64,000 nt of DNA, from positions 1-64,000 of the forward strand of contig MEPC01000012.1 of assembly GCA_001769655.1 (NCBI GenBank), written 5' to 3'. The stretch comes from Bacteroidetes bacterium RIFCSPLOWO2_12_FULL_37_12. Lineage in GTDB: Bacteria > Bacteroidota > Bacteroidia > 2-12-FULL-37-12. This document shows, one piece after another, positions 17,409-57,128 of this stretch; positions within the stretch are counted from its first letter, which is position 1, and each line of letters begins with the position of its first letter. The translations under genes were made by a program, and so were the position numbers. The notes beneath the pieces are model-generated. The model was not told the DNA's origin. It saw only the letters and a list, made by a program, of their open reading frames with translations, and did not search any database.

Positions 17409-17525
17409 TTACAAATAGTGAATTATAAAAAACATGACTTTTCTCATTCTTTTAGGAATGATATGTGAGGAAATTTGGGGAAAAATTTCATCTTTTTGAG
17501 ATTAAAAAAACCTTTATCATTTTTT

Positions 17526-19655: not shown

Positions 19656-19665
19656 AGATAACAAT

Positions 19666-21342
19666 ATGAATATAGATAAAATCTTAGTTTCAGTTCTGCA
19701 GAGAGGATTCAAATCCATTACGGATGAGATGAGCATCTCGTTAACAAAAACCACGCGTTCTCCAATATTATGCGAGGCGAAAGATTTTGTTACGGGATTA
19801 TATGATGCAGAAGGACAAATGTTGGAGCAAACAGAAAACCTTCCCATCCTTTCTTTCTCATTAGGTCCTGTATGTAAAGAAATCATAAAACAATATCAGA
19901 ATGATATTTTTCCCGGTGATGTCATCATTCACAACGATGTTTTCACAATGGGAAATCAAAATAATGACGTAGCGGTTTTTAAACCCATTTTTGTTAATAA
20001 CACGCTTGTAGGTTGGTCTGCCGCTAAAGGTCATCAGGCAGATATTGGGGGCGCTGTACAGGGAGGATACAATCCCAATGCCACTGAGGTCTGGCAGGAA
20101 GCATTGAGAATCCCAGCCGTAAAAATATATGAAAAAGGAATAATCCGGAAAGATGTCTGGAATCTGATTTTTGCAAATATCCGTCTGCAAATGGTTCAGG
20201 AAGACATTAAGGCACAGATAGGCGCATGTACTTTGGGAGAAAGACGTCTTCATTCATTGGTTTCAAAACATGGATTGGATGTTTTTCATTCACACAAACA
20301 AGACCTTTTTGATTCTACCGAAAAAATAATGCGTTCAGAAATAAAAAATATTCCGAAAGGAACATACACAGGTAAAAGCATGGTTTATTATGATGGAAAA
20401 TATAAAGGAAGTAAATTTCCAATTCATGTAAAAATTACTATAAGGGAAACAGATATAATTTTTGATTTTTCAAAATCATCCATTCAAACAAAAGGATTTG
20501 TTAATGGCACGTATTCCTCTACGTGTTCTGCCATTACACTTACTTTTTTGCAGATGGTAAATCCATCCATTCCTCATAACGAGGGCATGTTAAAGCCATT
20601 GAAATATATTGTGCCGGAAGGAACCATACTGAATGCTTCTTATCCTGCGGCTACAACATTCGGTAATCATTTGTGCCCGCAGATAGCCGACGCCATCTGT
20701 AAAGCGTTAGGTAAAGCAATTCCTGATAAAATTACAGCCGGTTGGAATCATCTACTCTGTTCATTATTTACCGGTATTCATCCTGATTCAGGTAAAAAAT
20801 ACGTGGATATATGCTTCTTAGGAATGAAAGGAGGCAGTGGCGCTAAAATGGGAAATGATGGTTACGACCATATAGGGATGATAGATGCTTCCGGAGGTGT
20901 TTTAGATCAGGATTATGAAATGTTTGAACATCAAACACCCCATCTCTTACTACAACACGAATATTTATGTGATTCGGCAGGCACGGGGCAATGGAGAGGG
21001 GGCTTGGGAACAGAAACAAAAATTTTAATGGGTGGCAGTGACACTACCATGGTTGTTTTTGGAGATGGCGATGTGGAGCCACCTTATGGTTTATTCGGGG
21101 GTAGAAAAAGCATACTTAATAAAATTGAATTGCAATTTAAAAATGGAAAAAAATTTGTGCCACTGAGTAAAGACATAGTACAAAATATTCCTAATAGCAC
21201 TGTATATTATCAAATAGCAGGCGGTGGAGGTGGGTATGGGAATCCTAAAAAAAGAGAGAAAGCTAAAGTATATGAGGATGTCAGGAATGAAGTGGTAAGT
21301 AATAAAATGGCACGTAAATATTATGGATATGCAAAAACATGA
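19666..21342 (+). CDS. Hydantoinase/oxoprolinase family protein, subunit B
   Basis: 558 aa from the ATG at 19666, 10 bp after hyuA; the longer frame overlaps hyuA and is not family-like. HyuB proteins form the second subunit of ATP-dependent hydantoinases, oxoprolinases and acetone/acetophenone carboxylases. Visible features are SLTKTTRSPILCEAKDFVTGLYD, with metal-binding style HNDVFTMGNQNNDV and KGHQADIGG (split), plus GTGQWRGGLGTE and the C-terminal GGGGGYGNP. No biotin or separate carboxylase gamma subunit is nearby, which favours lactam hydrolysis over carboxylation. The following Rid gene starts inside its last 20 bases. Confidence 0.88.
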   Translation: MNIDKILVSVLQRGFKSITDEMSISLTKTTRSPILCEAKDFVTGLYDAEGQMLEQTENLPILSFSLGPVCKEIIKQYQNDIFPGDVIIHNDVFTMGNQNNDVAVFKPIFVNNTLVGWSAAKGHQADIGGAVQGGYNPNATEVWQEALRIPAVKIYEKGIIRKDVWNLIFANIRLQMVQEDIKAQIGACTLGERRLHSLVSKHGLDVFHSHKQDLFDSTEKIMRSEIKNIPKGTYTGKSMVYYDGKYKGSKFPIHVKITIRETDIIFDFSKSSIQTKGFVNGTYSSTCSAITLTFLQMVNPSIPHNEGMLKPLKYIVPEGTILNASYPAATTFGNHLCPQIADAICKALGKAIPDKITAGWNHLLCSLFTGIHPDSGKKYVDICFLGMKGGSGAKMGNDGYDHIGMIDASGGVLDQDYEMFEHQTPHLLLQHEYLCDSAGTGQWRGGLGTETKILMGGSDTTMVVFGDGDVEPPYGLFGGRKSILNKIELQFKNGKKFVPLSKDIVQNIPNSTVYYQIAGGGGGYGNPKKREKAKVYEDVRNEVVSNKMARKYYGYAKT

Positions 21343-21739
21343 AATCATATTTCCGGATGGATGGAAAAAACCAATTGGTTATTCTGATGGAATACTTGCT
21401 ACAGAAGGAAAAATCCTTTTCATAGCCGGGCAGGTGGGCTGGGATGAAAATCAAATTTTTCAGAGTAGTGAATTAGTGCCACAATTTGAACAAGCATTAA
21501 AAAACATAATGGATGTTCTTAAAAAAGCTAATGGAAAACCGGAACATATTTGCAGGATGACTTGTTTTTGTATAGACAAAAAACAATATCTCGATTCACG
21601 TAGAGAACTTGGGAGTATCTGGAAAAAAATCTTGGGCAATCATTACCCCTGCATGAGCATGATTTTCGTTTCAGATTTATTAGACCACCCTGCGTTGATT
21701 GAAATTGAAACGACTGCGGTGATTCCGGAAAAACGCTGA
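21323..21739 (+). CDS. RidA/YjgF/UK114 family protein (non-canonical)
   Basis: 138 aa, one Rid domain. Family landmarks are ILFIAGQVGWDE, QFEQALKNIMDVLKKANGK and a C-terminal LIEIETTAVIP strand. In RidA imine deaminases the Arg in PARS is essential. Here the equivalent stretch reads PCMS, so that Arg is replaced by Met. It therefore probably does not act as a general enamine/imine deaminase. It overlaps hyuB by 20 bp, so it is translated with the ring-opening enzyme. A role in handling an enol/imine intermediate or stabilising the complex is possible but unproven. Confidence 0.82.
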   Translation: MDMQKHEIIFPDGWKKPIGYSDGILATEGKILFIAGQVGWDENQIFQSSELVPQFEQALKNIMDVLKKANGKPEHICRMTCFCIDKKQYLDSRRELGSIWKKILGNHYPCMSMIFVSDLLDHPALIEIETTAVIPEKR

Positions 21740-21750
21740 ACGTTAAATAC

Positions 21751-22875
21751 ATGGAAATAACTGAAATTCAAAAAAACATTCAAGCAACCTTTCGTGAATT
21801 TACAGAAAAGAAAGTAAAGCCGGTTGCGCAAAAATTAGACGTAGAAAAAAAATTCCCTTTGGAATTATTTAAAGAGGTTGGAAATCTTGGCTTTTTCGGA
21901 ATGAGATACCCGGAAGAGGTTGGTGGCACCGGTTCAGATGTTGTCTCATACATACTGGCTGTCATTGAACTTGCAAAGGGTTCTATGTCATTAGCGGCAT
22001 CTTGTACCATGCAATCATTAATGGGAACTTATTTCCTTTATCGTTTCGGCGATTCTGAAATCCGGGAAAAATATTTTTCACCGGCATTAAAAGGAAATAA
22101 AATCGGAGCTATTTGCATGACAGAGCCAAATGCAGGCAGTGATCTGATGGCAATAAAAACCACAGCAAATGTCCATTCAGACGGATTTATCTTAAACGGT
22201 CAGAAAACGTGGGTTACTTCCGCTCCTGTTGCAGATTTTTTTACAGTGCTCGCAAAAACTGATAATCATGAACAATTATCCATTTTTTTTGTGCCATCGC
22301 ATTTGAAGGGTGTCTTGATTGGTAAAAATATTGAGAAAATGGGAGTGCGTGCTTCCGTAACAAGTGAAGTAAGTTTTTCGGATGTTAAACTTCCTAAAAA
22401 TTATTTACTTGGTCAAATTGGAGAAGGAACAAAGTGTCTTCGCGAAATTCTTGCCGAAATCAGAATTATGACAGCGGCGCTTGCTATCGGAGTTGCCGCC
22501 GCCGCTTTTGAAGATGCATTGCAGTATTCCAACGAAAGAGAGCAGTTTGGAAAGTCAATAGGAAAATTTCAGGCAATTCAACTTAAACTTGCAGAAATGT
22601 CTGTACAGTTTGAAACAGCTAAACAGTATCTGATGTACGCCGCCATGCTAAGCGATAAAAACCTTCCACGGCAGAAAGAAGCCATGATTGCAAAGCTTTA
22701 TGCGTCTGAATGTGCGGTAACTATTTGTGATAACGCAAGCAGGATTTTTGCATCGTACGGATACGCAACAGATTTTCCGATAGAACGGTATTTACGCGAT
22801 TCCAGATTTACATTGATTGGGGGTGGCACCTCCGAAATTTTAAAAATTAATATAGCAAAGGAATTGTTTATATAA
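21751..22875 (+). CDS. Acyl-CoA dehydrogenase family protein lacking the catalytic Glu (putative decarboxylating benzylmalonyl-CoA-type)
   Basis: 374-aa FAD enzyme of normal length for the family. The FAD/substrate motifs ICMTEPNAGSD (121-131), NGQKTWVTSA, NEREQFGKSIGKFQAIQ and GTSEI are clear. The usual base (E376 of medium-chain dehydrogenase, in YEGTS) is Gly358 here (IGGGTSEI). The alternative position used by isovaleryl-CoA dehydrogenase aligns with Ile237 (AEIR). A base-free site fits an enzyme that removes a 2-carboxyl group instead of a proton, as reported for decarboxylating benzylmalonyl-CoA dehydrogenase of auxin degradation. Predicted reaction: (2-aminobenzyl)malonyl-CoA to 2-aminocinnamoyl-CoA plus CO2. 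E236, next to Ile237, is the main caveat. Confidence 0.85.
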   Translation: MEITEIQKNIQATFREFTEKKVKPVAQKLDVEKKFPLELFKEVGNLGFFGMRYPEEVGGTGSDVVSYILAVIELAKGSMSLAASCTMQSLMGTYFLYRFGDSEIREKYFSPALKGNKIGAICMTEPNAGSDLMAIKTTANVHSDGFILNGQKTWVTSAPVADFFTVLAKTDNHEQLSIFFVPSHLKGVLIGKNIEKMGVRASVTSEVSFSDVKLPKNYLLGQIGEGTKCLREILAEIRIMTAALAIGVAAAAFEDALQYSNEREQFGKSIGKFQAIQLKLAEMSVQFETAKQYLMYAAMLSDKNLPRQKEAMIAKLYASECAVTICDNASRIFASYGYATDFPIERYLRDSRFTLIGGGTSEILKINIAKELFI

Positions 22876-23188: not shown

Positions 23189-24367
23189 ATGTTTCCAAAC
23201 GCACACATCCCTTACGGTACCTGGGGTTCCAGCTTTTTCCCATCCTGGCAGTCCTCTCCTCTTGCAGAGGTAAATATTTGCCAGTTTGCCGGCGAATCCA
23301 TGTCAAGAATTATGGGAAAAAGAAAAGTTTCTACAAGCCATCTCGACTACCTCATAATTGGGTCAACCATTCCATGGCATTGGAAATTTTGGAATGCCAC
23401 CGTTGCCGCCAGTTGCATGGGTAAAAGAATTCCCGGTTATCAGGTGGAGCAGGCATGTGCCACCGGCTTGCAGGCAGTGATCATGGCAGGAGCTCAAATT
23501 CAAAGCGGCGCTTCCGAGGCGGTGGGTGTGCTCACATTTGATCGCACCAGTGATTCTCCGGTAGGAGTTTTTCCCGAACGCAGATCGTATCAAAGAACTC
23601 AAGCTATTAGTGATGTTTGGGATAATTTCGGATTTGACCCCGCCACCGGTAATGCAATGTTGGCAACTGCAGGTTTAGCCGCACGAAAATACAACATTGA
23701 GAAAAAGGAAGTTGACGAACTCACCAATTACCGGTATATACAATACTTCAATACAAAAGAAAAAGGATTTTTGAACCGTGTGGCAGTGCCACTTGAGTTA
23801 TTGAATGTGCAGGGAAAATCCATGGGTTGGATTAACGAAGATACCGGTGTGAGAAAAATTGCACTGGAAAGTTTAAGAGCCATGCGCGAGTTGGATACAT
23901 GCATTACGAGTGGCACTCAGACGCATGCTTCAGATGGCATGGCAACTCTTTTGGTAACCACTGAATCGAAAGCAAGAGAAATCAGCACTAAACCGGAGAT
24001 TAAAATATCTTTTGTTGGTAAATCGGAAGTAAGAACAAAACCAGGTCTGATGCCGGAAGCACCTGCTCTTGCCGTTCAGAAATTATTGACACAAATCAAT
24101 TTAAAGATGGAGGACATGAAAGTGATAAAAAATCACAATCCCTTTGCTGTAAATGATGCCATTTTTTCAAAACTTTTAAATTATGATTGGAAGAAAATGA
24201 ATAACACCGGTTGCCCTTTGGTTTGGGGACATCCACAGGGTCCTACACTTACTCGTGTGCTGATTGAAGCATTTGAAGAAGCTGTGGATTTGGGTGGCGG
24301 CTATGTACTTGTTTTCGGATGTGCGGCGGGAGATGTGGGAATTGCGGCAGTTTTTGAAGTAAAGTGA
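23189..24367 (+). CDS. Thiolase family protein (putative 3-oxo-3-(2-aminophenyl)propanoyl-CoA thiolase)
   Basis: 392-aa thiolase that would cleave a beta-ketoacyl-CoA with CoA. The nucleophile is C90 (VEQACATG), the general base H348 (WGHPQG) and the second Cys C378 (VFGCAAGD). The numbering is almost identical to the Zoogloea enzyme (C89/H348/C378). The usual NEAFA motif reads HNPFA (316-320), so the oxyanion-hole Asn is replaced by His, and GHPxGxxG is GHPQGPTLT. This departs from fatty-acid thiolases and suggests an unusual, probably aromatic substrate. In the proposed pathway it would release acetyl-CoA and 2-aminobenzoyl-CoA. It is flanked on both sides by complementary short repeats. 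Confidence 0.88.
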   Translation: MFPNAHIPYGTWGSSFFPSWQSSPLAEVNICQFAGESMSRIMGKRKVSTSHLDYLIIGSTIPWHWKFWNATVAASCMGKRIPGYQVEQACATGLQAVIMAGAQIQSGASEAVGVLTFDRTSDSPVGVFPERRSYQRTQAISDVWDNFGFDPATGNAMLATAGLAARKYNIEKKEVDELTNYRYIQYFNTKEKGFLNRVAVPLELLNVQGKSMGWINEDTGVRKIALESLRAMRELDTCITSGTQTHASDGMATLLVTTESKAREISTKPEIKISFVGKSEVRTKPGLMPEAPALAVQKLLTQINLKMEDMKVIKNHNPFAVNDAIFSKLLNYDWKKMNNTGCPLVWGHPQGPTLTRVLIEAFEEAVDLGGGYVLVFGCAAGDVGIAAVFEVK

Positions 24368-24403
24368 TTCGTGTTAACTACTCAGCACATAAATAATTTC
24401 CTT

Positions 24404-24455
24404 TTAAAAAAATAACACTTAACACAAAACATAAAACAAAAAATAAAAAACAAAC
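24404..24455. repeat. Inverted partner of the TTAAGTGTTTTATG array
   Basis: AAATAACACTTAACACAAAACATAAAACA-type sequence between the thiolase and the dehydrogenase/hydratase fusion gene is the reverse complement of the array upstream of the thiolase. It has no coding content. Confidence 0.6.
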
Positions 24456-24460
24456 TGACA

Positions 24461-26551
24461 ATGAGAAACTCCATACGACAATCCACGCTCGAAACTCTGG
24501 GATTAGGAACCGTCCTTGAGATTTTTAAAAAAGGTAAATTACCTGTCACTGCAAGTGAAATGGCAGATAAGGTTTTTGGTAAATCACCAACTCGCGGTGC
24601 GTTAGTTATTTCCGGAGCAAATGGTATTGTAGGCGCAGGTAAAACCATGCAATTTGGTTCCCGTCTGCTCCCGTTTAATATCCCCATTATTGCTCTCGAT
24701 CTCCCGGGCTCCCCCGATGGAATAGGAAAACATTTTTCTAATCTCAGCAAAACTTTTGGTAAGAATGAGGCAAATGCCATAATGAAAAATATAATAAAAT
24801 TAAATTACGATGGTGCCACTGTCCCCGATACATTAAAAACCTATAACCCACGTTATCTGCTGGAAGCAATTCCTGAAATATTAAATTTAAAAAAGAAACA
24901 TTATGAATTATTTAGAAATACATTTCCTGGTATTCAGATTTCATCGGTGACCTCCGGTTTTCCATCCTCTCAACTCGGTGTAAACATTGCTCATCCTGCA
25001 TTTCCTCACGAGATTAATAAAATCTGGGAAATTGCAGAGCCAACTCCCTCCGACTTTACACAACTGTTATGGTCATTGGGATTAATTCCGCTTCAGGTAA
25101 GTGATCATTGGTCATTTGTATTAGATGTCTTTTTCTGCGGTTTAATGCTTGCCGGATTAAGATACCATAATAAATCCAATATGCCTTTCTGGAAAACAGA
25201 TAAATACATCCGTCAACTACTGGGACCCAATCCATTCCGTGCTCATGATGCCATTGGTGCAAAGGGCGCAAATTTTCTAACGTGGTCGTGCTTACATCAT
25301 CTTGATAAAAATTATGGAACATTGTTTACTCCTACTGCTGAATTGGAGGAACGGAAAGAAAGCGGACAAAACTGGTATCCTTTAGACCATTTCAGACCTT
25401 TGGTTAACTGGTCTCTCGATAAAGAAGAAAATGAAATATTTCAAACCATGATGATGGGCGCTCTCTTTCAGATGACATCTATTATGATACACGAAAAGAG
25501 ATCCCATTTATCTTCCATGAACAGCATTGGAGAATTGTGCGCCCAATTTACAAGAGGAATATTATCAATGGCACGCAAAGCCGGCTATCAAAATATTATG
25601 AACACCGTGCAGGACTATCACAAACTTCATCCTGAGTCCGCTAATACAAAATGGTATCCCGATATATTTAATCAGATTAGCAGTTCAGAGTGGCAACAGC
25701 TTTATGTAAATGCTGAATTTGAAAATAATGCAGGCGTAATTACTATTAGCCGCGAAAGTTACAATCAGGATATTGACGATGAATTGAACAGGGCAATTGA
25801 TTGGCTAAAAGCAAAAAAGGTAAAGAGAGTAATTCTAACCGGTGATTTTCATTTATCCACTCAAATGGTAGGGGCAGATACCAATGATTTCTTCCCCGCG
25901 TTAACAAATGCAAATGAAGGCGAAAGAATTGCCAGCTCCTGGTCTGCCACTGCAAGACGTTTATATAATGAATTTGAAATATCCGTAGGATTTATAAACG
26001 GTAAACGATGCATGGGTGGAATGTTGGAATTGATGATCCATTGTCATTATTTAATATCCTTGGATGACACTGTTTTAGCCATGCCCGAAGTGACACTTCC
26101 TGTAGTACCCGGAATGGAAGGGTGTCACTGGTCACTTAGAAAAACAAAACCTGAATTGCGGCAAAATATTATCAGCATGTTAATGGAGGGGGGATCTGTG
26201 AAAGCGCAAAATTCGGTAGGATGGTTGATTGACTTTTCAGGTTCAATGGAAATCGCTCTTAAGAAGACCTGGGAGATTATTGGAAACGGAAAAGAGGTGT
26301 TGCCTTTCCGGGAAGTATTCTCAAAACCAATTGAAAACATAACATTTAACGGATTAAAATCAGATTCTTCTTCCAATCAGAATATAATGGAATCAAGAAA
26401 GGCAATTGCTGATTGTATTATTAATTCCTGTAATGCGGATTTGAATGATGCACTCACCATACAGGCAAAACATTCGGCTGGTTTTATGCTCAGCAAATTA
26501 TGCCGTAAAGGAAGAGTTGGAAGTGAATATGATAAAATAAATGTAAACTGA
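24461..26551 (+). CDS. 3-hydroxyacyl-CoA dehydrogenase / enoyl-CoA hydratase fusion
   Basis: 696 aa. After a 45-residue helical leader the NAD-binding domain begins (LVISGANGIVGAG at 48-60, a GxxGxxG variant), followed by the dehydrogenase His region (NIAHPAFPHEINKIWEI, near 175) and GLIPLQVSDHWSFVLD. From about 395 to 640 there is a crotonase fold: ANEGERIASSWSATARRLYNEF, then KRCMGGMLEL and the catalytic-type MPEVTLPVVPG. The order HAD-then-ECH is the archaeal-type arrangement, opposite to FadB. Predicted role: hydrate 2-aminocinnamoyl-CoA and oxidise the alcohol to the beta-keto thioester. Such a fusion is listed among the indoleacetate-induced proteins of Azoarcus. The sequence is divergent, so substrate specificity is inferred from context only. 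Confidence 0.82.
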   Translation: MRNSIRQSTLETLGLGTVLEIFKKGKLPVTASEMADKVFGKSPTRGALVISGANGIVGAGKTMQFGSRLLPFNIPIIALDLPGSPDGIGKHFSNLSKTFGKNEANAIMKNIIKLNYDGATVPDTLKTYNPRYLLEAIPEILNLKKKHYELFRNTFPGIQISSVTSGFPSSQLGVNIAHPAFPHEINKIWEIAEPTPSDFTQLLWSLGLIPLQVSDHWSFVLDVFFCGLMLAGLRYHNKSNMPFWKTDKYIRQLLGPNPFRAHDAIGAKGANFLTWSCLHHLDKNYGTLFTPTAELEERKESGQNWYPLDHFRPLVNWSLDKEENEIFQTMMMGALFQMTSIMIHEKRSHLSSMNSIGELCAQFTRGILSMARKAGYQNIMNTVQDYHKLHPESANTKWYPDIFNQISSSEWQQLYVNAEFENNAGVITISRESYNQDIDDELNRAIDWLKAKKVKRVILTGDFHLSTQMVGADTNDFFPALTNANEGERIASSWSATARRLYNEFEISVGFINGKRCMGGMLELMIHCHYLISLDDTVLAMPEVTLPVVPGMEGCHWSLRKTKPELRQNIISMLMEGGSVKAQNSVGWLIDFSGSMEIALKKTWEIIGNGKEVLPFREVFSKPIENITFNGLKSDSSSNQNIMESRKAIADCIINSCNADLNDALTIQAKHSAGFMLSKLCRKGRVGSEYDKINVN

Positions 26552-26569
26552 ATTTTTTTGAGATTTTAT

Positions 26570-26944
26570 ATGAAAATACTTCTCGCAAAACCCGGACTTG
26601 ATGGACACGATGTTGGAGTCAAAGTTCTTGCGCATGCTTTAATAGAAGCGGGATGGAAAGTTGTTTACACCGGCTTGCGTAAATCAATTGAAGAAATTGT
26701 TGAAAAAGCAATTAAAGAAAAACCAAATCTTATCGGATTATCAATTCTTTCCGGTACTCATCTGATTTTATGTGAAAGATTCAGAGACGTTTTGTTGGCT
26801 AAAAATGTAAAAATACAGTGGATTATTGGTGGTAATATTCCTGAGAAAGATGTAATTCCCTTGGAAAATCTTGGTGCCACAAAAGCATTTCCAACCGGAA
26901 CAAAGATACAGACGGTGGTTGATTTTGTTAAGGGGCATGTTTGA
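26570..26944 (+). CDS. B12-binding small subunit of acyl-CoA mutase
   Basis: 124 aa from the ATG at 26570 (18 bp after the fusion gene). It is a stand-alone cobalamin-binding domain. D-x-H-x-x-G is complete (GLDGHDVG, D11, H13, G16), followed by LSILSGTH and GGNIPEKD, the base-off/His-on B12 fold. It pairs with the separate catalytic subunit 73 bp downstream. Split mutases of this size are known for 2-hydroxyisobutyryl-CoA mutase, isobutyryl-CoA mutase and the phenylsuccinyl-CoA-type mutase of the iaa operon. The stop codon is at the start of a GATGTTGG repeat array. Confidence 0.93.
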   Translation: MKILLAKPGLDGHDVGVKVLAHALIEAGWKVVYTGLRKSIEEIVEKAIKEKPNLIGLSILSGTHLILCERFRDVLLAKNVKIQWIIGGNIPEKDVIPLENLGATKAFPTGTKIQTVVDFVKGHV

Positions 26945-27005
26945 TGTTGGATGTTGGATGTTAGATGTTGGAATTTGGATGTTGGATGTTGAATATTTGA
27001 TATTT
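26943..27005. repeat. GATGTTGG tandem array between mutase subunit genes
   Basis: TGATGTTGGATGTTGGATGT-type units fill the gap between the two mutase genes. A longer upstream reading frame of the large subunit runs through this array and encodes periodic MLDVG peptide; it should not be taken as its N-terminus. Confidence 0.85.
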
Positions 27006-27017
27006 AAAATAGAGATT

Positions 27018-28613
27018 ATGGAAGAATTAAAAAAAATATTTCTAGAATCCGGGTTTGAAGTAAAACCTTTATATAAATCCAACGATTCAGAAGAAAATAA
27101 TCAGGGTGTTAGGAATGAAGAGCCGGGTAAATTTCCATATACTCGCGGGATACATCCATTAATGTATCGCAAACGTCCTTTCACCATCCGTCAATATGCA
27201 GGTTTTGCCTCTCCGGAAGAAACCAACGCACGATTTCAATTTCTGATAAAAAACGGTCAAACCGGATTAAATGTGGCATTTGACTTACCTACTCAATGCG
27301 GACTGGATTCAGACGACCCACGTTCACTGGGAGAAGTAGGACGTGTAGGAATGGCTGTGGATACTCTTGAAGATTTTGAAATTGCATTTAACGGCATTGA
27401 CCTTGACAAAATAACAGTGTCACTCACTATAAATGGATCTGCCATTGTGTTGATGGCTATGTATTTTGCTTTGGCAAAAAAAAGAGGATACGATTTAAAA
27501 AATCTTCGTGGCACTGCTCAAAATGACATCCTTAAAGAATTTATTGGCAGAGGTACCTGGATTTTTCCTGTTGACAAATCGGTGAAGTTAGTGACTGACA
27601 CCATAGAATTCTGTGCCACTCATGTCCCAAAATATTCTCCGGTAAGTGTTTGTGGTTATCATATCCGGGAATCCGGTGCTAATCCGGTACAGGAAATGGC
27701 ATACGCTTTTTCGATTGCTAAAGCATATTCCGATGAAACCCTGAAAAGAGGCATAACCATTGATGAATTTGCATCGCGTTTATCGTTTAACTTTGATATT
27801 TATGGAAACTTTTTCGAACAGATAGCTAAATTCAGGGGAGGCAGACGCCTTTGGGCTAGAATAATGCGGGAAGAATACAAAGCACTGAAAGATGAATCCT
27901 GCTGGATGAGGATGATTGCTGGCGGTGGAGGTGCAGGTCTTACTAAAGAACAACCTGAAAACAACATTGTCAGAACTGCCTATTATGCTTTAATTTCTGC
28001 CTTATCGGGGACTCAAACAATGGCACTATGCACGTACGATGAAGCATACACCATTCCAACCGAGAAAGCCGCTGAAATCGCACTGCGAACAATGCAAATT
28101 ATGATTCATGAAATGGGAATTTGTGACACTGTGGACCCATTGGGTGGCTCCTATTATGTTGAAACACTTACAAATCAATTTGAACAGGAAATTAAAAAGG
28201 AAATGCAAAAAGTAGCTTTGTGGGGTGGTATAATAAATGCCGTTTCTACAGGTAAAATACAGGAAGCAGTGTCACAACAGGCATACCAAAGGGAAAAAGG
28301 TATCCAAGAAGGTAAAACATTGAAAGTTGGAGTAAATTGTTTTCAAAATGATGAAGAAAATAAAACCGTTGAGTTCCATCCTTACAATCAGTCAGCCGCA
28401 AACAGGCAAATTTTCAAATTGAAAGAAATCAGAAAAAGAAGAGAAATCACGTTAGTTAATATCACTCTCAATAAACTTAAACAATCAGCAAAACAAAATA
28501 TAAATGTGATGCCCGATGTCATTGATGCAGTAAATGCCTACGCAAGTGTAGGAGAAATTATTCATGTACTAAAAGAAGTATATGGAGAATTTGATGAACC
28601 CATTTTCTTTTAG
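27018..28613 (+). CDS. Methylmalonyl-CoA mutase-type large subunit (putative (2-aminophenyl)succinyl-CoA mutase)
   Basis: 531 aa from the ATG at 27018, chosen because the longer frame is repeat-derived. It is the TIM-barrel catalytic domain without a B12 domain: FPYTRGIHPLMYRKRPFTIRQYAGF (39-63, given for position), FDLPTQCGLDSDDP, QNDILKEF and the His of SVCGYHIRESG. At the residue that separates subfamilies (Tyr in methylmalonyl-, Phe in isobutyryl-, Ile in 2-hydroxyisobutyryl-CoA mutase) it has Tyr60. At the carboxylate-binding Arg207 position it has Lys190. Both fit a dicarboxylic acyl-CoA, as needed for phenylsuccinyl to benzylmalonyl rearrangement, and argue against HcmA or IcmA. The alignment is from memory. 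A simple propionate-pathway mutase is less likely because that enzyme carries its own B12 domain. Confidence 0.85.
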   Translation: MEELKKIFLESGFEVKPLYKSNDSEENNQGVRNEEPGKFPYTRGIHPLMYRKRPFTIRQYAGFASPEETNARFQFLIKNGQTGLNVAFDLPTQCGLDSDDPRSLGEVGRVGMAVDTLEDFEIAFNGIDLDKITVSLTINGSAIVLMAMYFALAKKRGYDLKNLRGTAQNDILKEFIGRGTWIFPVDKSVKLVTDTIEFCATHVPKYSPVSVCGYHIRESGANPVQEMAYAFSIAKAYSDETLKRGITIDEFASRLSFNFDIYGNFFEQIAKFRGGRRLWARIMREEYKALKDESCWMRMIAGGGGAGLTKEQPENNIVRTAYYALISALSGTQTMALCTYDEAYTIPTEKAAEIALRTMQIMIHEMGICDTVDPLGGSYYVETLTNQFEQEIKKEMQKVALWGGIINAVSTGKIQEAVSQQAYQREKGIQEGKTLKVGVNCFQNDEENKTVEFHPYNQSAANRQIFKLKEIRKRREITLVNITLNKLKQSAKQNINVMPDVIDAVNAYASVGEIIHVLKEVYGEFDEPIFF

Positions 28614-28615
28614 TT

Positions 28616-29761
28616 ATGCCTACGATCCTTAGTTTAGAACAAGCGCTTGCTCTCCCCTACGCCACACAACGTTTCGTGCACTTAGGTTGGAGAGTCATTC
28701 GAATCGAATCTCCAGCAGAATCGGATGAAAATGCCGGTGACCCAAACCGTTATATAGGCACCGATTTAGGTTATCACGACTTACACTCGTATTTTATTGC
28801 ACCCAATTTGGGTAAAGAAGCAATTACTATTAACCTAAGGACTAAAGAAGGACAGGAATTATTAAAAAAAATTATCCATGAATTGAAGGTGGATGTATTT
28901 ATGTGCAATACGTTGCCAAAAAGATATAAATCGTTGGGTATTGATTACGAAACATTAAGACAAGTAAATCCTGAACTTATTTGGTGTGGTATTTCAGCCA
29001 TGGGACCCTCCTACCCTGACCGCGCCGGATACGACCCTGCTTTGCAGGCGCTACTTGGTTTTACGTATCTTACAGGTGAAGCCGATGGTACTCCTGTACC
29101 TTGCGGTATTCCGGTAATTGACTTGAAAGCAGGTGACGAAGCATTTACACAGGTAATACTCGCTTTGATGGAGAAAAAAGATAAAAAAATTGGAAAACAA
29201 ATTGATATTTCAATGGCACAATGCGCCGCATCGTGGTTAATTACTGCTTTACCGCAATTGGAATTTACTTCCAGCGAGGATGAATTATTTAAACGCAGTG
29301 GTAACGAGCACAGAAGTTTCATCCCGAGCAATGCATATCCTACAAAAGATGGGTTTGTTTATCTGGCTATAGGTAATGATATTCAATGGAAAAAACTTGT
29401 TTCAGAACAAAAATTCAAAAATCTGGACAAGACGGAACGCCGAACCAACGAAGGCAGAATGAAAGAGAAAAATGAAATTTATCAGGAAATAGGAAGTGTC
29501 ACTAAAACATTTACCACTTCTGAATTTGTAAATTATTGCATGCATTTGAATTTGTCAGTATCGCCAATTAATACTATAAAAGAAGTAGCTGAACTTCCGT
29601 TTTTAAATAACAACTTTTTAAAAACCACTTTACCATCCGGCAAAGTTGTTAAATTGTGTCCCCCTTCCTATAATACGGATTTTCTCACTGAAAATAACTT
29701 TTATCTGAAATGCTCCCCACGATTAGGGGAAGATAATGCTAAAATTTTGGGATTGGCGTGA
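28616..29761 (+). CDS. CaiB/BaiF family III CoA-transferase
   Basis: 381 aa, starting two bases after the mutase stop. Family III enzymes move CoA between carboxylic acids through an Asp-bound thioester. The catalytic Asp is D169 in GIPVIDLKAGDEAF. The N-terminal LALPYATQRFVHLG and GYDPALQALLGFTYLTG regions also match. Expected partners are an aryl-succinate acceptor and an acyl-CoA donor. The neighbouring IorAB would supply indoleacetyl-CoA, so I infer transfer from indoleacetyl-CoA to (2-aminophenyl)succinate, analogous to the phenylsuccinyl-CoA transferase of the iaa operon. No ATP-dependent CoA ligase is present in the cluster. Confidence 0.87.
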   Translation: MPTILSLEQALALPYATQRFVHLGWRVIRIESPAESDENAGDPNRYIGTDLGYHDLHSYFIAPNLGKEAITINLRTKEGQELLKKIIHELKVDVFMCNTLPKRYKSLGIDYETLRQVNPELIWCGISAMGPSYPDRAGYDPALQALLGFTYLTGEADGTPVPCGIPVIDLKAGDEAFTQVILALMEKKDKKIGKQIDISMAQCAASWLITALPQLEFTSSEDELFKRSGNEHRSFIPSNAYPTKDGFVYLAIGNDIQWKKLVSEQKFKNLDKTERRTNEGRMKEKNEIYQEIGSVTKTFTTSEFVNYCMHLNLSVSPINTIKEVAELPFLNNNFLKTTLPSGKVVKLCPPSYNTDFLTENNFYLKCSPRLGEDNAKILGLA

Positions 29762-29782: not shown

Positions 29783-32700
29783 ATGTTAGATCAAACGTTA
29801 GACATATTAACCTCATATAAAACACCCAAAAAGGTATGCGTTTTGGGTAATGTGGCAGTGTCACGCGGTGCTATTGAAGCGGGAGTGCAAGGTGTATTTG
29901 CTTATCCGGGAACTCCTTCTACAGAAATCTCAGAGGTTTTTAAATACATTAACGAATATCAGAATCATAAAGAATATAAAAAGAAATTTCCTGTGCTTTC
30001 TTTATCTCAAATTTATTTTGAGTATAGCATTAATGAAAAAATTGCGTTGGAAAAAGCTATTTCTTATTCTATAGGAAACAAAAGCGCTTTATGCATCATG
30101 AAAAATGTGGGATTAAACGTTGCCTCTGATGCTCTGATGACCATACCGTATCAAACTATTGTGGCTCCATTGGTTTTGGTGGTATGTGACGACCCGGGTT
30201 GCTTTTCCAGTTCAAATGAACAGGACTCACGTTATTGGGGAAAATTTGCGTCAGTGCCATTACTTAATCCTTCCAATCCACAGGATGCTTATAAAATGAC
30301 AAAAGAAGCTTTTGCAATATCTGCTGTTCTCAAACTACCTGTGATCCTGAGAATGACTACCCGTGTTGACCATTCATGTGGAGTAATTTTCTATGAACAG
30401 ATAAAAACAGAGAATAATTCAGGTTCTTTTAATAAAAATCCTCTTCATATTAACATTCCATCACGTACTGCTCAATCTCATTCACGTTTATTACAAAAAC
30501 TAAATGATGAGTTATTTAATAAATTAAATGAAAAACTCTGTCATCCAACTAAAATTAAAAAATCATCTAAAAGTGAACTTGGAATAATAGCGAGCGGAGT
30601 TTCCTGGAATTATATCCAGGAATTTAAAACTCATACTTCTTATTTGGAAAATATTCATATCTTAAAAATTAATGTCATCCACCCTTTTCCCGAAAACGAT
30701 GTTGTAAATTTTATCACCGGTTTAAAAAGAATTTTAGTACTGGAAGAATTGGATCCAATAGTTGAAAATGAAGTCCGTATAATTATTCAGAAAATAAATC
30801 TGAATATAGATGTCTTCGGTAAAGGATTCAGTGTATTGACAAGAACCGGTGAATTTACACTTGATATTATCAGAAAAACATTAGAGGATTTTACAAATAA
30901 AAAAATAAGTACTGGAACAGGAATATCTATTTCAAATGGAAAAGATATTTTTTCTCAATTACCACCGCGTCCTCCTACTCTTTGCGCCGGTTGTCCCCAT
31001 CGTGCTACTTTTTATGCCTTGAAACTTTGCGTTCCAAGAGATGATAATTCCATTATCTTATGCGGTGACATTGGTTGCTTCGGGTTAGGTGCTCTTCCTC
31101 CTCTTAAACTGATTGATACCATAAACCACATGGGTATGAGCATAAGCATGGCTCAGGGACTTGAGCAGGCATTGAAAACATCTGACAAATCAGAAAAAAT
31201 TGTTGCGCTTTTAGGGGATGGAACATTTTTTCATTCCGGAATTTCATCCCTTCTCAATGCTATTTACACGAAAGCAAACCTAACAGTAATTATATTCGAT
31301 AACCGCACTATAGGAATGACAGGACATCAGGAGCATCCCGGCGCCAGTCATCAGGAGAAATATAAACAGATTGAAATCCTACCCTTAGTAAATGGCTTTG
31401 GAGTTGACTATGCCGTTCAGGTTAATCCTTTTGATTTAAAAAATACGTTTGAAATAATTAAAAAAGCTATGGATACAAAGGGGATTTCTGTTATCATTGC
31501 AAAATCACCCTGTATTTTTTTAAAAGAGTTCAAAGAAAATTATGTTTTAAATAAAAAAATAAAAGTTGATGATAGTAGATGTAATACCTGTTTTAATCAC
31601 TGTGACTTGAATATTTTTTGTTCGAAAGAAAAATCCATTAAGGGAAATCTTGCGCGTGCAAAAGCAAAAATTTCATCAAAATATCATATCAATGGCAGTG
31701 AACAATTATGTCCAGCTAATATTTGCAATCACGGATTTTACAATGCAATACAAGCAGGACGCTTTAAAGAAGCATTGGAAATTGTCCGGGATAAAATGCT
31801 TTTCTCCAGAGTTTGTGGAGAAATTTGTCACAGACCTTGCGAATTGAATTTTTCATTTACTAACTCAGAAAATTACAAAAGATTTAATGATACAAGCAAC
31901 AATGTTTTTCAGAAACATTTAGAAAAAGTTCCTATCAAGAAATTTAAACATCAGGTAAGCAGTATAGAGGAGAATTTTGCCGATTTCTCTAATCAAATAA
32001 AACGGTCAAAAGAGTGCAATAAAAGAAACAAACACGTAGCCATTGTTGGTGCCGGACCATCAGGTTTAAGTGCGGCGTATGATTTAATTCGGGTTGGATA
32101 CGATGTTACAGTATTTGAAAAACAATCACAACCCGGTGGAATGATTCAATATGTAATCCCCAGCTTCAGGGTGGATAAGAAGTGTCTGGCAAAAGAAACC
32201 GGTGCGTTAATTAATATGGGAGTAAATTTCAACTATAATGTGACACTTGGAAAAGATTTCACCGTTGAAAATTTATCAGAAAAGTATGACGCTGTCATTG
32301 TAGCTATTGGTTTATGGAATTCATTAAAAGTTGATATGATTGAAGCAAATATGCCCGAATCAAAAAAATTTGATGCCATTACTTTTTTAATGAAATACAA
32401 TGATAAGAAACTGAAATTTAACAAGCCACAACGTTTTCTTATTATTGGCGGAGGAAACAGTGCTATGGATTCTGCCAGAGCCGCAAAAAAATTAAATCTG
32501 AAAAACAGTGTGACTATTTCCTGCTTAGAAACAAGAAATAAAATGCCTGCCTTTGAAGATGAAATACAAGATACTGAAAATTACGGAATAAGGATTCTTC
32601 CAAACACTGAAATAAAGAAAATTTCTAAAAGCAAAAACAGTTATTTTGCTTACTTACAATCTTACGATGAGAAAAAAGATATTGAAAAGCTTGACTTTGA

Positions 32701-33202
32701 TTATATTATTTCAGCTATAGGACAAAAACCTGAAAATTTATTTTCTGATGTAAATACAGATCATTCCGGTAGATTATTAAAAACCGGATTTAAAAATGTA
32801 TTCGCCGCCGGTGATATATCAGCGGAAAATCATATTTCACTCATAGGGGCAATAGGAAGTGGTAAAAAAACTGCGATTGAAGTACGAAAATTCCTGGAAA
32901 ATTATTCTTTTGATTACGAAGGAGAAATTGCATTAAATAATCTGAAACGTTCATTATATTTACATTCGGAAATCTCAATAGCCAATAATATCATTTCAGA
33001 AACTGTATCGTTGGAAGATTCAACAACCATTTACGATTTATACCAACCCTGTGCAAAATGTGATCACTGTATTGAAAATTTTGGATGTCCGGCTTTGATT
33101 AAAGTGAACGGTAAAGTAAAAATTGATGAATTAAAATGTACCCGTTGCGGACTTTGCATTGACGTTTGTCCAAATGATGCAATTGGATGGATGAGTGTAT
33201 AG
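29783..33202 (+). CDS. iorA: Indolepyruvate oxidoreductase alpha subunit fused to a GltD-like NAD(P)H/FAD module
   Basis: 1139 aa, almost twice the usual IorA. Residues 1-240 are the pyruvate:ferredoxin oxidoreductase N-domain (FAYPGTPSTE). 395-590 is the TPP domain (LCAGCPHRATF, GDIGCFGLG, LGDGTFFHSG...FDN). 600-690 is a cysteine-rich Fe-S domain of the GltD/dihydropyrimidine dehydrogenase kind (CNTCFNHC, LCPANIC, RVCGEICHRPCE). 750-1040 is the flavin module: FAD site VAIVGAGPSGLSAAYD, NAD(P) site LIIGGGNSAMDSA, FAAGDIS. 1090-1135 is the normal C-terminal ferredoxin (CAKCDHC, CTRCGLCIDVCP). It would oxidise an arylpyruvate to aryl-acetyl-CoA and pass electrons internally to NAD(P)+, resembling phenylglyoxylate:NAD+ oxidoreductase with its GltD-like subunit. 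iorB follows after 9 bp. Confidence 0.92.
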   Translation: MLDQTLDILTSYKTPKKVCVLGNVAVSRGAIEAGVQGVFAYPGTPSTEISEVFKYINEYQNHKEYKKKFPVLSLSQIYFEYSINEKIALEKAISYSIGNKSALCIMKNVGLNVASDALMTIPYQTIVAPLVLVVCDDPGCFSSSNEQDSRYWGKFASVPLLNPSNPQDAYKMTKEAFAISAVLKLPVILRMTTRVDHSCGVIFYEQIKTENNSGSFNKNPLHINIPSRTAQSHSRLLQKLNDELFNKLNEKLCHPTKIKKSSKSELGIIASGVSWNYIQEFKTHTSYLENIHILKINVIHPFPENDVVNFITGLKRILVLEELDPIVENEVRIIIQKINLNIDVFGKGFSVLTRTGEFTLDIIRKTLEDFTNKKISTGTGISISNGKDIFSQLPPRPPTLCAGCPHRATFYALKLCVPRDDNSIILCGDIGCFGLGALPPLKLIDTINHMGMSISMAQGLEQALKTSDKSEKIVALLGDGTFFHSGISSLLNAIYTKANLTVIIFDNRTIGMTGHQEHPGASHQEKYKQIEILPLVNGFGVDYAVQVNPFDLKNTFEIIKKAMDTKGISVIIAKSPCIFLKEFKENYVLNKKIKVDDSRCNTCFNHCDLNIFCSKEKSIKGNLARAKAKISSKYHINGSEQLCPANICNHGFYNAIQAGRFKEALEIVRDKMLFSRVCGEICHRPCELNFSFTNSENYKRFNDTSNNVFQKHLEKVPIKKFKHQVSSIEENFADFSNQIKRSKECNKRNKHVAIVGAGPSGLSAAYDLIRVGYDVTVFEKQSQPGGMIQYVIPSFRVDKKCLAKETGALINMGVNFNYNVTLGKDFTVENLSEKYDAVIVAIGLWNSLKVDMIEANMPESKKFDAITFLMKYNDKKLKFNKPQRFLIIGGGNSAMDSARAAKKLNLKNSVTISCLETRNKMPAFEDEIQDTENYGIRILPNTEIKKISKSKNSYFAYLQSYDEKKDIEKLDFDYIISAIGQKPENLFSDVNTDHSGRLLKTGFKNVFAAGDISAENHISLIGAIGSGKKTAIEVRKFLENYSFDYEGEIALNNLKRSLYLHSEISIANNIISETVSLEDSTTIYDLYQPCAKCDHCIENFGCPALIKVNGKVKIDELKCTRCGLCIDVCPNDAIGWMSV

Positions 33203-33211
33203 CAAACTTAT

Positions 33212-33775
33212 ATGAAAATAATAAAAAAATCTAAAATCATAATCACCGGTGTGGGGGGGCAAGGAATTGTTTTTCTGACAGAAATTATTGTGGAAGCCGC
33301 CATGCGTGCCAGAATCAATGTTGCTACCAGCGAGATACATGGATTATCCCAGCGGGGTGGCACTGTTACGGCTGGAATAACGCTTGGAGAAGGAACGTAT
33401 GGAATGGTAGAAGAAGGAGGGGCAGATTTTCTCCTCGGTCTTGAAATGCTTGAAGCGCAACGTTGTGTTAATTATTTGAATAAAAAATCTGTTGCAGTTA
33501 TTGACAACACTTGCATATTTCCCTATTCGGTGAATGCCGGTTCGGTTCCTTATCCGGACACAAAATTATTTTTGAGTTATTTAAAGAAAAACATCAGTGA
33601 TGTACTATTCATTGATGATGTCTTTAATGAAACGGAACCCGTTATGCGTAATCTGGTTGTATTGTCAAAGGCAGTGTCACACTCAAAATTTCCAATAAAA
33701 AAATCATTTTTTATAGAGGCAATCGCAAACAATTCAAGAGGAGATAAAAATAAAATGTTAAAAATATTTCAATAA
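33212..33775 (+). CDS. iorB: Indolepyruvate oxidoreductase beta (gamma-domain) subunit
   Basis: 187 aa, the small catalytic partner of IorA. Family motifs: IIITGVGGQGIVFLTEII, then SEIHGLSQRGGTVTA and GGADFLLGLEMLEA. It binds the CoA/TPP side of the heteromeric enzyme that converts indolepyruvate, CoA and an oxidant to indoleacetyl-CoA and CO2. It lies 9 bp after iorA, and the [2Fe-2S] gene starts one base after its stop, so all are co-transcribed. Confidence 0.93.
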   Translation: MKIIKKSKIIITGVGGQGIVFLTEIIVEAAMRARINVATSEIHGLSQRGGTVTAGITLGEGTYGMVEEGGADFLLGLEMLEAQRCVNYLNKKSVAVIDNTCIFPYSVNAGSVPYPDTKLFLSYLKKNISDVLFIDDVFNETEPVMRNLVVLSKAVSHSKFPIKKSFFIEAIANNSRGDKNKMLKIFQ

Positions 33776-33776
33776 G

Positions 33777-34268
33777 ATGTTAAAGAACAAAATATCCATA
33801 TCATTCAAATTAAACGGTCAGAAAGTAACCCGGGAAATTAAACCCTCTTTATTACTGATAGAACTTATAAGAGATGAATTTGGTTTGACTGGTACAAAAC
33901 CGGGATGCCTCGAAGGCGAATGTGGCGCATGTTCTGTCCTGGTGAATGGGGAAGCCATTAATTCCTGTTTATTTCTTGCATTGAATATTGATAAAAAGGA
34001 ATTAATAACTATTGAAGGGCTTGCCGGAAAAAATGAATTGGATGAAGTTCAAAAATCTCTGATTAAAAAAGGAGCGGTACAATGTGGTTTTTGCACTTCC
34101 GGCATGGCTATTTCAATAAAATCCATTCAAAATCATTTTTCAAAACAAAAATACAAACCCGCGAAGGAGGAGATTGTAAAAATGTTGGAAGGAAATCTTT
34201 GCCGTTGTACAGGATATGTTAAAATTATTGAAGCGGCTGTGGAGGTAATAAGAGGTATAAGGGTATAA
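33777..34268 (+). CDS. [2Fe-2S] small subunit of a xanthine dehydrogenase-family molybdenum hydroxylase
   Basis: 163 aa, the CoxS/small-subunit type with both clusters intact: C44, C49, C52, C64 (plant-ferredoxin fold, CLEGECGACSV) and C103, C106, C142, C144 (CGFC, CRCTGY). In the proposed pathway a molybdenum enzyme hydroxylates C2 of the indole ring with water. The matching molybdopterin and FAD subunits are not in this window, so it must pair with genes elsewhere or be a remnant. The last residues (RGIRV) come from a GTATAAGG repeat, so the original C-terminus may have been changed by repeat insertion. Confidence 0.92.
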   Translation: MLKNKISISFKLNGQKVTREIKPSLLLIELIRDEFGLTGTKPGCLEGECGACSVLVNGEAINSCLFLALNIDKKELITIEGLAGKNELDEVQKSLIKKGAVQCGFCTSGMAISIKSIQNHFSKQKYKPAKEEIVKMLEGNLCRCTGYVKIIEAAVEVIRGIRV

Positions 34269-34341
34269 GGGTATATAAGGGTATAAAGTTTTAACCCCTA
34301 TGCCCTATACCTTTATACCCCTATACCTTATACCCCTATTT
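34252..34341. terminator. GTATAAGG/CCTTATACC hairpin at the end of the catabolic operon
   Basis: Direct GGTATAAGG units (34252-34287) are followed, after TTTTAA, by complementary CCCCTATACC units (34294-34341). They can form a long imperfect stem just at and beyond the stop codon of the [2Fe-2S] gene. Position at an operon end and folding potential suggest transcription termination; no U-tract is obvious. It belongs to the same family as the arrays at 16171 and 60546. Confidence 0.5.
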
Positions 34342-34350
34342 CCCTTTACC

Positions 34351-34382
34351 TTTGTTAATCTGCCACAAATATTCTATCTTTA
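34351..34382 (+). promoter_or_regulatory. Promoter upstream of the sufU-like gene
   Basis: TTTG at 34351-34354, 20 bp spacer, TATCTTTA at 34375-34382 (one mismatch to TAnnTTTG). The start codon follows 9 bp later, so the transcript would be nearly leaderless. Confidence 0.5.
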
Positions 34383-34391
34383 CGAATAATA

Positions 34392-34844
34392 ATGGACGAA
34401 CTCAAAGAACTATACCAGCAGGTAATCCTTGACCACAACCGGAATCCGAGGAATTTTGGCGCATTGGAAAATCATACCCATACGGCTGAGGGGTTTAATC
34501 CGCTATGCGGCGACCATTTTTTTGTTGACTTGATTCTTGAAAACAATCTGGTAAAAGAAATTCACTTTCACGGTCAGGGTTGTGCATTGTCAAAGGCATC
34601 TGCCTCCATAATGACTACGTTGCTCAAGGGTAAAACACTGGAGGAGGCAGGCAAATTATTTGAAAAATTTCACGATTTGGTTACCGGAAAAACAGAATCA
34701 ATAACCACTGTTGAGGAATACGGTAAAATTGCAGTTTTCTCCGGAGTCAGGGAATTTCCGGTTAGAGTGAAATGTGCAAGTTTGGCATGGCATACAATGA
34801 AGGCGGCAATTTCAATAGATGGAAAAGTGGTTTCAACGGAGTAA
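34392..34844 (+). CDS. sufU: SufU-type Fe-S cluster assembly protein
   Basis: 150 aa. SufU assists SufS cysteine desulfurase as a zinc-dependent sulfur acceptor. The ligands are present: C39 and D41 (NPLCGDH), C64 (GQGCALSKASASIM) and C128 (RVKCASLAWHT). The insertion typical of SufU relative to IscU is present between about 85 and 110. It is followed 17 bp later by a SufT-like gene. Together they would support the many Fe-S proteins of the adjacent catabolic operon, though the pair is also ordinary housekeeping. Confidence 0.9.
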   Translation: MDELKELYQQVILDHNRNPRNFGALENHTHTAEGFNPLCGDHFFVDLILENNLVKEIHFHGQGCALSKASASIMTTLLKGKTLEEAGKLFEKFHDLVTGKTESITTVEEYGKIAVFSGVREFPVRVKCASLAWHTMKAAISIDGKVVSTE

Positions 34845-56717: not shown

Positions 56718-57128
56718 TTTCGTTATAGTTATTAAATTTTTCGTAAAGGTATCAATAAGTATCACAAAAACAATACATTGATACAAATTGTTACCATAAA
56801 GTTATCAACATAGGGGGTGTAAATTTAGTTCTTTGATTTTTTGTCCTTCTATTAGCAAAGTGAGAAAGTGAGCAAAATGCAACATGGTGACTTTTGCAAA
56901 ATTGTAGCCCCGGATTCAATTTGTGCCGGCTTTATCGCTTGTAGAATGTAAAATTTCAGAAATCCTGACCTGCTCGTAAATTAAAATGTCTAATTTTTGA
57001 TGTTTGATATTTGAAAAAGGTACAATTGTAATATTCTAAAACTTCAAACAGATGTAAATATTTTTCTTCTAATATGGTTTTTAGAAGAAAAGAAAGAGAA
57101 ACCCAATCTGGGTGTTTGTACATTAGAG
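56718..57128. other. Intergenic region, 411 bp
   Basis: Besides the promoter/operator at 56744-56784, no gene is evident. A GGGGGTGTAAATTTAG segment near 56811 and a small CCCAATCTGGG hairpin near 57100, at the 3' side of the PAP2 gene, are the only structures noted. Confidence 0.55.
56744..56784 (-). promoter_or_regulatory. Promoter and candidate operator of the restriction-modification operon
   Basis: On the minus strand a TACCTTTA -7-like box (56744-56751) with ATTG 19 bp upstream (56771-56774). A perfect 8-bp inverted repeat GTATCAAT (56749-56756) / ATTGATAC (56777-56784) brackets this promoter, with an extra GTATCAC at 56759-56765. A protein bound there would block RNA polymerase. The HTH-carrying methyltransferase is the obvious candidate. 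Confidence 0.4.

Follow-up and report, generated by a model that had tools for sequence, protein, structure and literature searches.

Phenylglyoxylate:NAD+ oxidoreductase has a GltD-like subunit. The anaerobic-type indolepyruvate oxidoreductases built around IorA convert arylpyruvates to arylacetyl-coenzyme A (CoA) esters and use ferredoxin as acceptor (PMC13285125, PMC5109826). The iaa pathway of indoleacetate degradation in Aromatoleum aromaticum starts with the CoA ligase IaaB, which activates free indoleacetate, and a GGG motif in place of YEG is diagnostic of IaaF (PMC8360864). Here we describe a 64,000-nucleotide stretch of contig MEPC01000012.1 of Bacteroidetes bacterium RIFCSPLOWO2_12_FULL_37_12 (hereafter the window), in which an IorA core, a GltD-type module and an IorA-type ferredoxin are joined in one chain within an operon of iaa-like appearance. 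We infer from architecture, conservation, operon and co-occurrence, with a probability of about 0.7, that the fused protein is the large subunit of a CoA-acylating indolepyruvate:NAD(P)+ oxidoreductase that feeds an iaa-type route.

Architecture of the fused protein

Positions 29783-33202 of the forward strand form a single unbroken ATG frame, the stop codon counted in, that encodes 1139 residues and contains both GAGPSGLSAAYD and GGGNSAMDSA. The POR_N and thiamine diphosphate (TPP) domains of IorA are followed by a GltD-type iron-sulfur (Fe-S)/flavin adenine dinucleotide (FAD)/NAD(P) module and then by an IorA-type 2[4Fe-4S] ferredoxin. The parts of the chain are as follows.

29783..33202, + strand: fused IorA-GltD-ferredoxin, 1139 residues (open reading frame, family scans, homologues)
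29831..31621, + strand: IorA core, POR_N-like and TPP domains, residues 17-613 (TIGR03336 match 17-613; TPP_enzyme_C 429-572)
31580..31852, + strand: Fe-S entry of the GltD module, residues 600-690 (family scan, invariant cysteines)
32030..32902, + strand: FAD/NAD(P) domains of the GltD module, residues 750-1040 (Pyr_redox_2; fold matches)
32528..32530, + strand: codon of Glu916 (38/38 sequences; strand β2 at 909-913 in the structure model; motif comparison)
33038..33199, + strand: C-terminal IorA-type 2[4Fe-4S] ferredoxin, residues 1086-1139 (motif, spacing, invariant cysteines)

POR_N-like and TPP domains, the CAGCPHR motif and the IorA-type 2[4Fe-4S] ferredoxin, all elements of an IorA protein, are present in the fused chain. 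The NCBIfam model of IorA, TIGR03336, matches residues 17-613 with an E value of 1e-181 and 605 bits, just under its equivalog cut-off of 650.9 bits; the window protein is the top IorA match in a sample of 396 Bacteroidota genomes, none of which yielded a match that reached the cut-off. The POR_N match is likewise slightly below the cut-off of its model. GltD-type models match residues 638-1134, with Fer4_20 at 637-688, Pyr_redox_2 at 751-1015 and Fer4 at 1112-1134, and the module carries the GxGxxG and GGGNSA motifs.

The pattern of the C-terminal ferredoxin is C-x2-C-x2-C-x5-CPA...ID..C..CG.C...CP, and its sequence can be aligned to the C-terminal ends of four IorA proteins from Clostridia/Negativicutes, whereas the ferredoxin of stand-alone GltD-ferredoxin and POR-gamma-GltD proteins in related genomes has the pattern RCLHCGxCxxCxxCxxxCP. 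Motif and spacing thus rule out that the tail comes from a GltD-ferredoxin protein of the PRK12771 type. Because the tail is of the IorA type, the GltD module does interrupt an IorA chain, after the TPP domain and ahead of the ferredoxin, and the open reading frame, the family scans and the ferredoxin pattern together bear out the preliminary description of this DNA, which had read the frame in this way. Furthermore, the sequence VDxxRCNTC at residues 595-603, ahead of the insert, echoes the start of the ferredoxin, which suggests, short of proof from the echo alone, that the insertion may have come with a partial duplication.

Recurrence and phylogeny of the fusion

A pattern scan of a genome collection identified 41 loci in other assemblies that encode a relative, with 47-61% identity in the best segment. 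Nearly all belong to metagenome-assembled genomes of Bacteroidota; an Ignavibacteriales record and a 'Competibacteraceae' record are also among them. The fused frames in the sampled genomes span about 1120-1240 residues and are stop-free, fragments at contig ends excepted; among the 41 loci, two (L045 and L046) have a mid-gene break of the frame, and contig ends truncate four. The recurrence of one chain across dozens of independently assembled genomes rules out chance, and also a misassembly that joined two genes, a concern raised in the preliminary description.

The architecture is also not a widespread, already characterised one. The fused chain is present in 21 of 395 sampled Bacteroidia genomes (~5%), while 17 of the 395 contain only an unfused IorA of about 525-561 residues. 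In the phylum-wide sample of 396 genomes, a long fused frame occurs among strong IorA matches only in the window's own genome. No plasmid-borne or annotated sequence covers 80% of the fused query (best about 57% among the matches listed), and a mutase query gave only matches below 60% identity. Relatives outside Bacteroidota were sought by one pattern scan and the plasmid search, with thin coverage there. No description of an IorA-GltD fusion was found in the open-access literature searched.

In a FastTree phylogeny of the IorA core, the fused sequences form one clade with a support of 100. Five label changes occur in the tree, including four truncated or frame-broken fused loci that had been labelled unfused. 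Because the tree was built with FastTree and contains long branches, we use only the unity of the fused clade from it. One fused sequence, L040 ('Candidatus Competibacteraceae'), the sole Pseudomonadota record with the fusion, nests among Bacteroidota, which reflects either a transfer or a misbinned contig.

Cofactor ligands and nucleotide preference

We assessed ligand conservation in 38 aligned sequences, of which the 37 homologues are 49-59% identical to the window protein and all have the same single-chain architecture. In the TPP domain, C401, C404, C427, C432 and C577 are invariant in 38/38 sequences, and four of these five residues probably hold a TPP-proximal [4Fe-4S] cluster. In the Fe-S entry of the GltD module, eight cysteines (600, 603, 613, 643, 648, 678, 682 and 686) are invariant in all 38 sequences, sufficient for two [4Fe-4S] clusters, and the eight cysteines of the C-terminal ferredoxin are invariant to the same extent. 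The invariant cysteines therefore fit a predicted set of one TPP-proximal, two GltD and two ferredoxin [4Fe-4S] clusters, with a putative assignment of individual residues to clusters.

Residue Glu916, also invariant (38/38), is positioned just past β2 of the NAD(P) domain in a C-x-E motif. At this place NADPH-type GltD modules carry Y-R-R, which marks a sub-class and need not occur in every GltD-like module; the fused protein lacks it, and several other GltD modules that we compared are acidic there. In Rossmann folds, an acidic residue at the end of β2 generally favours NAD+. Since the invariant Glu916 stands where GltD has an arginine, NAD+ is favoured over NADP+ as the likely acceptor, as a preference rather than a finding.

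The AlphaFold model of the fused chain has a predicted local distance difference test (pLDDT) score of 73.7 and a predicted template modelling (pTM) score of 0.54; the single domains are good, and the arrangement of the domains is unreliable. The closest folds to the GltD module are those of NfnL/NfnA, StnC, GltD and DPD.

Operon context and co-occurrence

The fused gene lies in a forward-strand gene cluster of the window with the following members.

17475..19655, + strand: HyuA-like subunit of an ATP-dependent lactamase, predicted 2-oxoindoleacetyl-CoA lactamase (open reading frame; family by eye and operon)
19558..21342, + strand: HyuB-like subunit, start more likely near 19663 (open reading frame; in all 21 fused genomes)
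21323..21739, + strand: RidA-like protein (open reading frame; 19/28 loci with room)
21751..22875, + strand: IaaF-like decarboxylating acyl-CoA dehydrogenase, GGG for YEG (IGGGTSEI at residue 356)
23189..24367, + strand: thiolase of the β-oxidation part (family scans)
24461..26551, + strand: crotonase-containing β-oxidation protein (family scans)
26558..26944, + strand: B12-binding small subunit of the mutase (family scan; 27/28 loci)
26871..28613, + strand: B12-dependent acyl-CoA mutase large subunit, IaaGH-like, start more likely near 27018 (MM_CoA_mutase, E 7e-190; 27/28 loci)
28616..29761, + strand: CoA-transferase family III, IaaL-like (family scans; upstream in 28/28 loci with room)
33212..33775, + strand: IorB, small subunit of indolepyruvate oxidoreductase (POR domain and IOR_beta models)
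33777..34268, + strand: [2Fe-2S] subunit of a molybdenum hydroxylase, XdhC-like (family scan)

The spacings around IorA-GltD and IorB are 21, 9 and 1 bp, with IorB 9 bp downstream of IorA-GltD. The neighbourhood is conserved among relatives, counted in loci with enough flanking sequence (28 upstream, 31 downstream): the CoA-transferase and the mutase precede the fusion in 28/28 and 27/28 loci, and IorB, XdhC, XdhA and XdhB each follow it in 31/31 and the aminotransferase in 29/31. In the window's own genome, XdhA and XdhB (the molybdenum and FAD subunits of the hydroxylase) and the aminotransferase are located on another contig, C4.

The operon looks like an iaa-type operon. In particular, a lactamase, a family III CoA-transferase and a B12 mutase are all in the window cluster, and the IaaF-like dehydrogenase has the GGG motif in 23/23 homologues, whereas most members of its family have YEG. 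The window HyuAB lacks a gamma subunit, as do the hydAB hydrolases (PMC5214803). A simple, crude pattern for the AMP-ligase-type motif of IaaB, applied near the operon only, found none in the window or the searched loci.

Co-occurrence links the fusion to this operon. The iaa-type HyuB is present in 24 of 395 Bacteroidia genomes, which include all 21 with the fusion. Of the other three, G530 and G692 show only operon parts within the sequence that was read. In the third, G649, the operon is the same, and an 846-residue IorA-IorB fusion, in which the ferredoxin is present and GltD absent, occupies exactly the place of IorA-GltD and IorB (L151 619-3159, and L148). This syntenic replacement argues that the step needs a 2-oxoacid oxidoreductase, while the acceptor end can differ. 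Upstream of the G649 fusion are an AFOR gene and genes for other Fe-S proteins, and a frame that is HdrA-like by eye lies nearby. The unfused IorA genes of four other Bacteroidia lie outside any iaa context. A haem-copper oxidase is encoded in 21/21 fused genomes, giving NADH a respiratory outlet, and in 0/4 tested Bacteroidia with an unfused IorA outside an iaa context.

Second 2-oxoacid oxidoreductases in the group include POR-gamma-GltD-ferredoxin fusions of 745-752 residues at L112 and L113 (G036) and at L114 (G007), inside the same operon in G036. GltD modules seem to have been plugged into 2-oxoacid oxidoreductases repeatedly in this group.

Further features of the window

The iaa and suf operons look reciprocally broken: in the window (33777-34844) XdhC is followed by SufU, and in C4 (L076 867-4534) SufS is followed by XdhA. 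A genuine rearrangement or a chimera formed in assembly would explain this. A shared repeat behind the split was ruled out, as the breakpoints have no common word of at least 14 bases. The gap between XdhC and SufU (34268-34392) contains short GGGTATAA-type repeats in both orientations. The 5′ part of the mutase frame (26871-27017) encodes a repetitive WMLDVG stretch, probably a repeat that lies ahead of the actual start. At 23189-26551, the window has a thiolase and crotonase pair, whereas most relatives have a ketoacyl-synthase-like gene and a thiolase (4 versus 20-22 of 28 loci). Finally, two DNA methyltransferase-like frames lie beside a 592-residue protein of unknown type at 52673-56786, possibly a restriction or defence locus.

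Proposed function and alternative explanations

In the proposed route, the operon aminotransferase would convert tryptophan to indolepyruvate, which IorA-GltD and IorB would decarboxylate and oxidise on TPP. The two electrons would leave one at a time, first to the TPP-proximal [4Fe-4S] cluster, next to those of the C-terminal ferredoxin and then to the GltD pair, before reaching FAD; FAD would give a hydride to NAD+ or, less likely, NADP+. CoA would accept the acyl group, and the resulting indoleacetyl-CoA would enter the iaa-type route. Specifically, the molybdenum hydroxylase would form 2-oxoindoleacetyl-CoA, HyuAB would open its lactam with ATP to give 2-aminophenylsuccinyl-CoA, and the CoA-transferase would relocate the CoA. 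The B12 mutase would then form 2-aminobenzylmalonyl-CoA, the IaaF-like enzyme would convert this by oxidative decarboxylation to 2-aminocinnamoyl-CoA, and β-oxidation would yield anthraniloyl-CoA and acetyl-CoA. Entry through indolepyruvate would make the ATP-consuming ligase IaaB unnecessary and pass the electrons to the respiratory NADH pool.

Several observations weigh against this proposal. The IorA score is under the equivalog cut-off, so phenylpyruvate or 4-hydroxyphenylpyruvate may be real substrates, and the iaa assignment itself comes from the set of genes and the GGG motif, not from a direct alignment with characterised Iaa proteins. GGGNSA is a GxGxxA fingerprint, taken as NADP(H)-binding in StnC (PMC7483475). 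Given the low AlphaFold confidence around several cluster loops, together with the pTM score, a continuous electron path is a putative one. Respiration alone cannot separate the GltD-fused from the GltD-free version, because G649 also has a haem-copper oxidase. Finally, the C-terminal ferredoxin could still hand electrons to free ferredoxin or another external partner.

In an unlikely alternative, an arylpyruvate oxidoreductase also uses free ferredoxin and GltD serves as a tethered ferredoxin:NAD(P)+ reductase that balances both pools. It would account for the retention of a full IorA-type ferredoxin with all eight cysteines, and the GltD-like subunit of Nfn does exchange electrons with ferredoxin (PMC8097209); in DPD, however, which also combines GltD with an 8Fe ferredoxin, the ferredoxin clusters complete an internal wire (PMC8097209), and fixation of the fusion across the whole clade suggests dedicated transfer. 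We find it improbable, and less probable than the use of free ferredoxin, that the substrate is another, late-pathway 2-oxoacid, such as 2-aminophenylglyoxylate, which would yield anthraniloyl-CoA by analogy to phenylglyoxylate:NAD+ oxidoreductase. The resemblance of the GltD-type part to that enzyme would fit such a substrate, and the operon would end at anthraniloyl-CoA either way, but the operon already has thiolases for the late steps and an aminotransferase for the first. Moreover, the protein is of the IorA type, with POR_N and TPP in one chain, whereas PadG groups with separate-subunit enzymes (PMC13285125).

The preliminary description had also considered a confurcating or bifurcating version, in which the GltD FAD would send some electrons to NAD(P)+ and others to a second carrier. 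This found no support and is very improbable. Among solved structures, the folds nearest to the GltD module do include subunits of the bifurcating Nfn and Stn enzymes, but GltD-like modules also occur in the non-bifurcating GltS and DPD (PMC8097209). Each chain has one flavin module, the window operon encodes no NfnS- or ETF-like partner, and the reaction of a 2-oxoacid with NAD+ is exergonic when uncoupled, leaving no thermodynamic need for bifurcation.

An indolepyruvate:NAD(P)+ oxidoreductase, as the preliminary description had proposed, is thus still the reading we prefer. It includes electron exit to NAD(P)+ through the built-in GltD module, and the operon context, which that description did not use, supports indolepyruvate as the predicted substrate; the bypass of free ferredoxin, also suggested there, is putative. 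In its widest form, our proposal is that an indolepyruvate:NAD+ oxidoreductase, ferredoxin-free and self-contained, is the entry to a hitherto undescribed pathway from tryptophan to anthraniloyl-CoA (aminotransferase, IorA-GltD/IorB, molybdenum hydroxylase, lactamase, B12 mutase and IaaF) in respiring Bacteroidota, with an acceptor module that varies among relatives at the same operon position; we put this at even odds.

If the proposal is true, internal wiring to NAD(P)+ would explain how a lineage that respires oxygen retains a 2-oxoacid oxidoreductase of a type usually anaerobic and linked to ferredoxin. The proposal also provides a specific, testable entry from tryptophan into an indoleacetyl-CoA pathway without a CoA ligase, in uncultured, little-studied Bacteroidota whose genomes come chiefly from metagenomes. 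In G649, where a GltD-free fusion takes the same place in the operon, nature supplies a counterpart for comparing acceptor modules.

Comparison with known systems

The fused protein shares with IorAB of the Pyrococcus furiosus type (TIGR03336/TIGR03334) the POR_N and TPP domains, CAGCPHR, the C-terminal 2[4Fe-4S] ferredoxin and a separate IorB. It differs in an insert of about 480 residues, the GltD-type Fe-S/FAD/NAD(P) module, between the TPP domain and the ferredoxin, and in its predicted acceptor, NAD(P)+ instead of ferredoxin.

Phenylglyoxylate:NAD+ oxidoreductase, PadEFGHI of Azoarcus evansii, is likewise a 2-oxoacid oxidoreductase coupled to NAD+. It belongs to another branch of these enzymes, acts on another substrate, and has separate subunits, and its GltD part does not interrupt an IorA chain. 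The phenylglyoxylate type has separate alpha, beta, gamma, delta and GltD-like subunits, whereas here POR_N, TPP, GltD and ferredoxin are in one chain. The POR-gamma-GltD-ferredoxin fusions at L113 and L114, from the same bacterial group, also have GltD plugged into a 2-oxoacid oxidoreductase, but they carry it on the gamma domain, with a GltD-type ferredoxin and Y-R-R at the NAD(P) site.

DPD is, by analogy, a precedent: its single chain also contains a GltD-like module, a catalytic domain and an 8Fe ferredoxin, the C-terminal ferredoxin completing the wire. In contrast to the fused protein, DPD has a DHODH-like flavin mononucleotide (FMN) domain in place of the TPP-dependent oxidoreductase part, runs from NADPH outward and has another domain order. 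Finally, the iaa operon of A. aromaticum and the window operon have in common an IaaF with GGG, a B12 mutase, a family III CoA-transferase and a hydantoinase-type lactamase; the former starts with the ligase IaaB, whereas here IorA-GltD/IorB and the aminotransferase would start from tryptophan.

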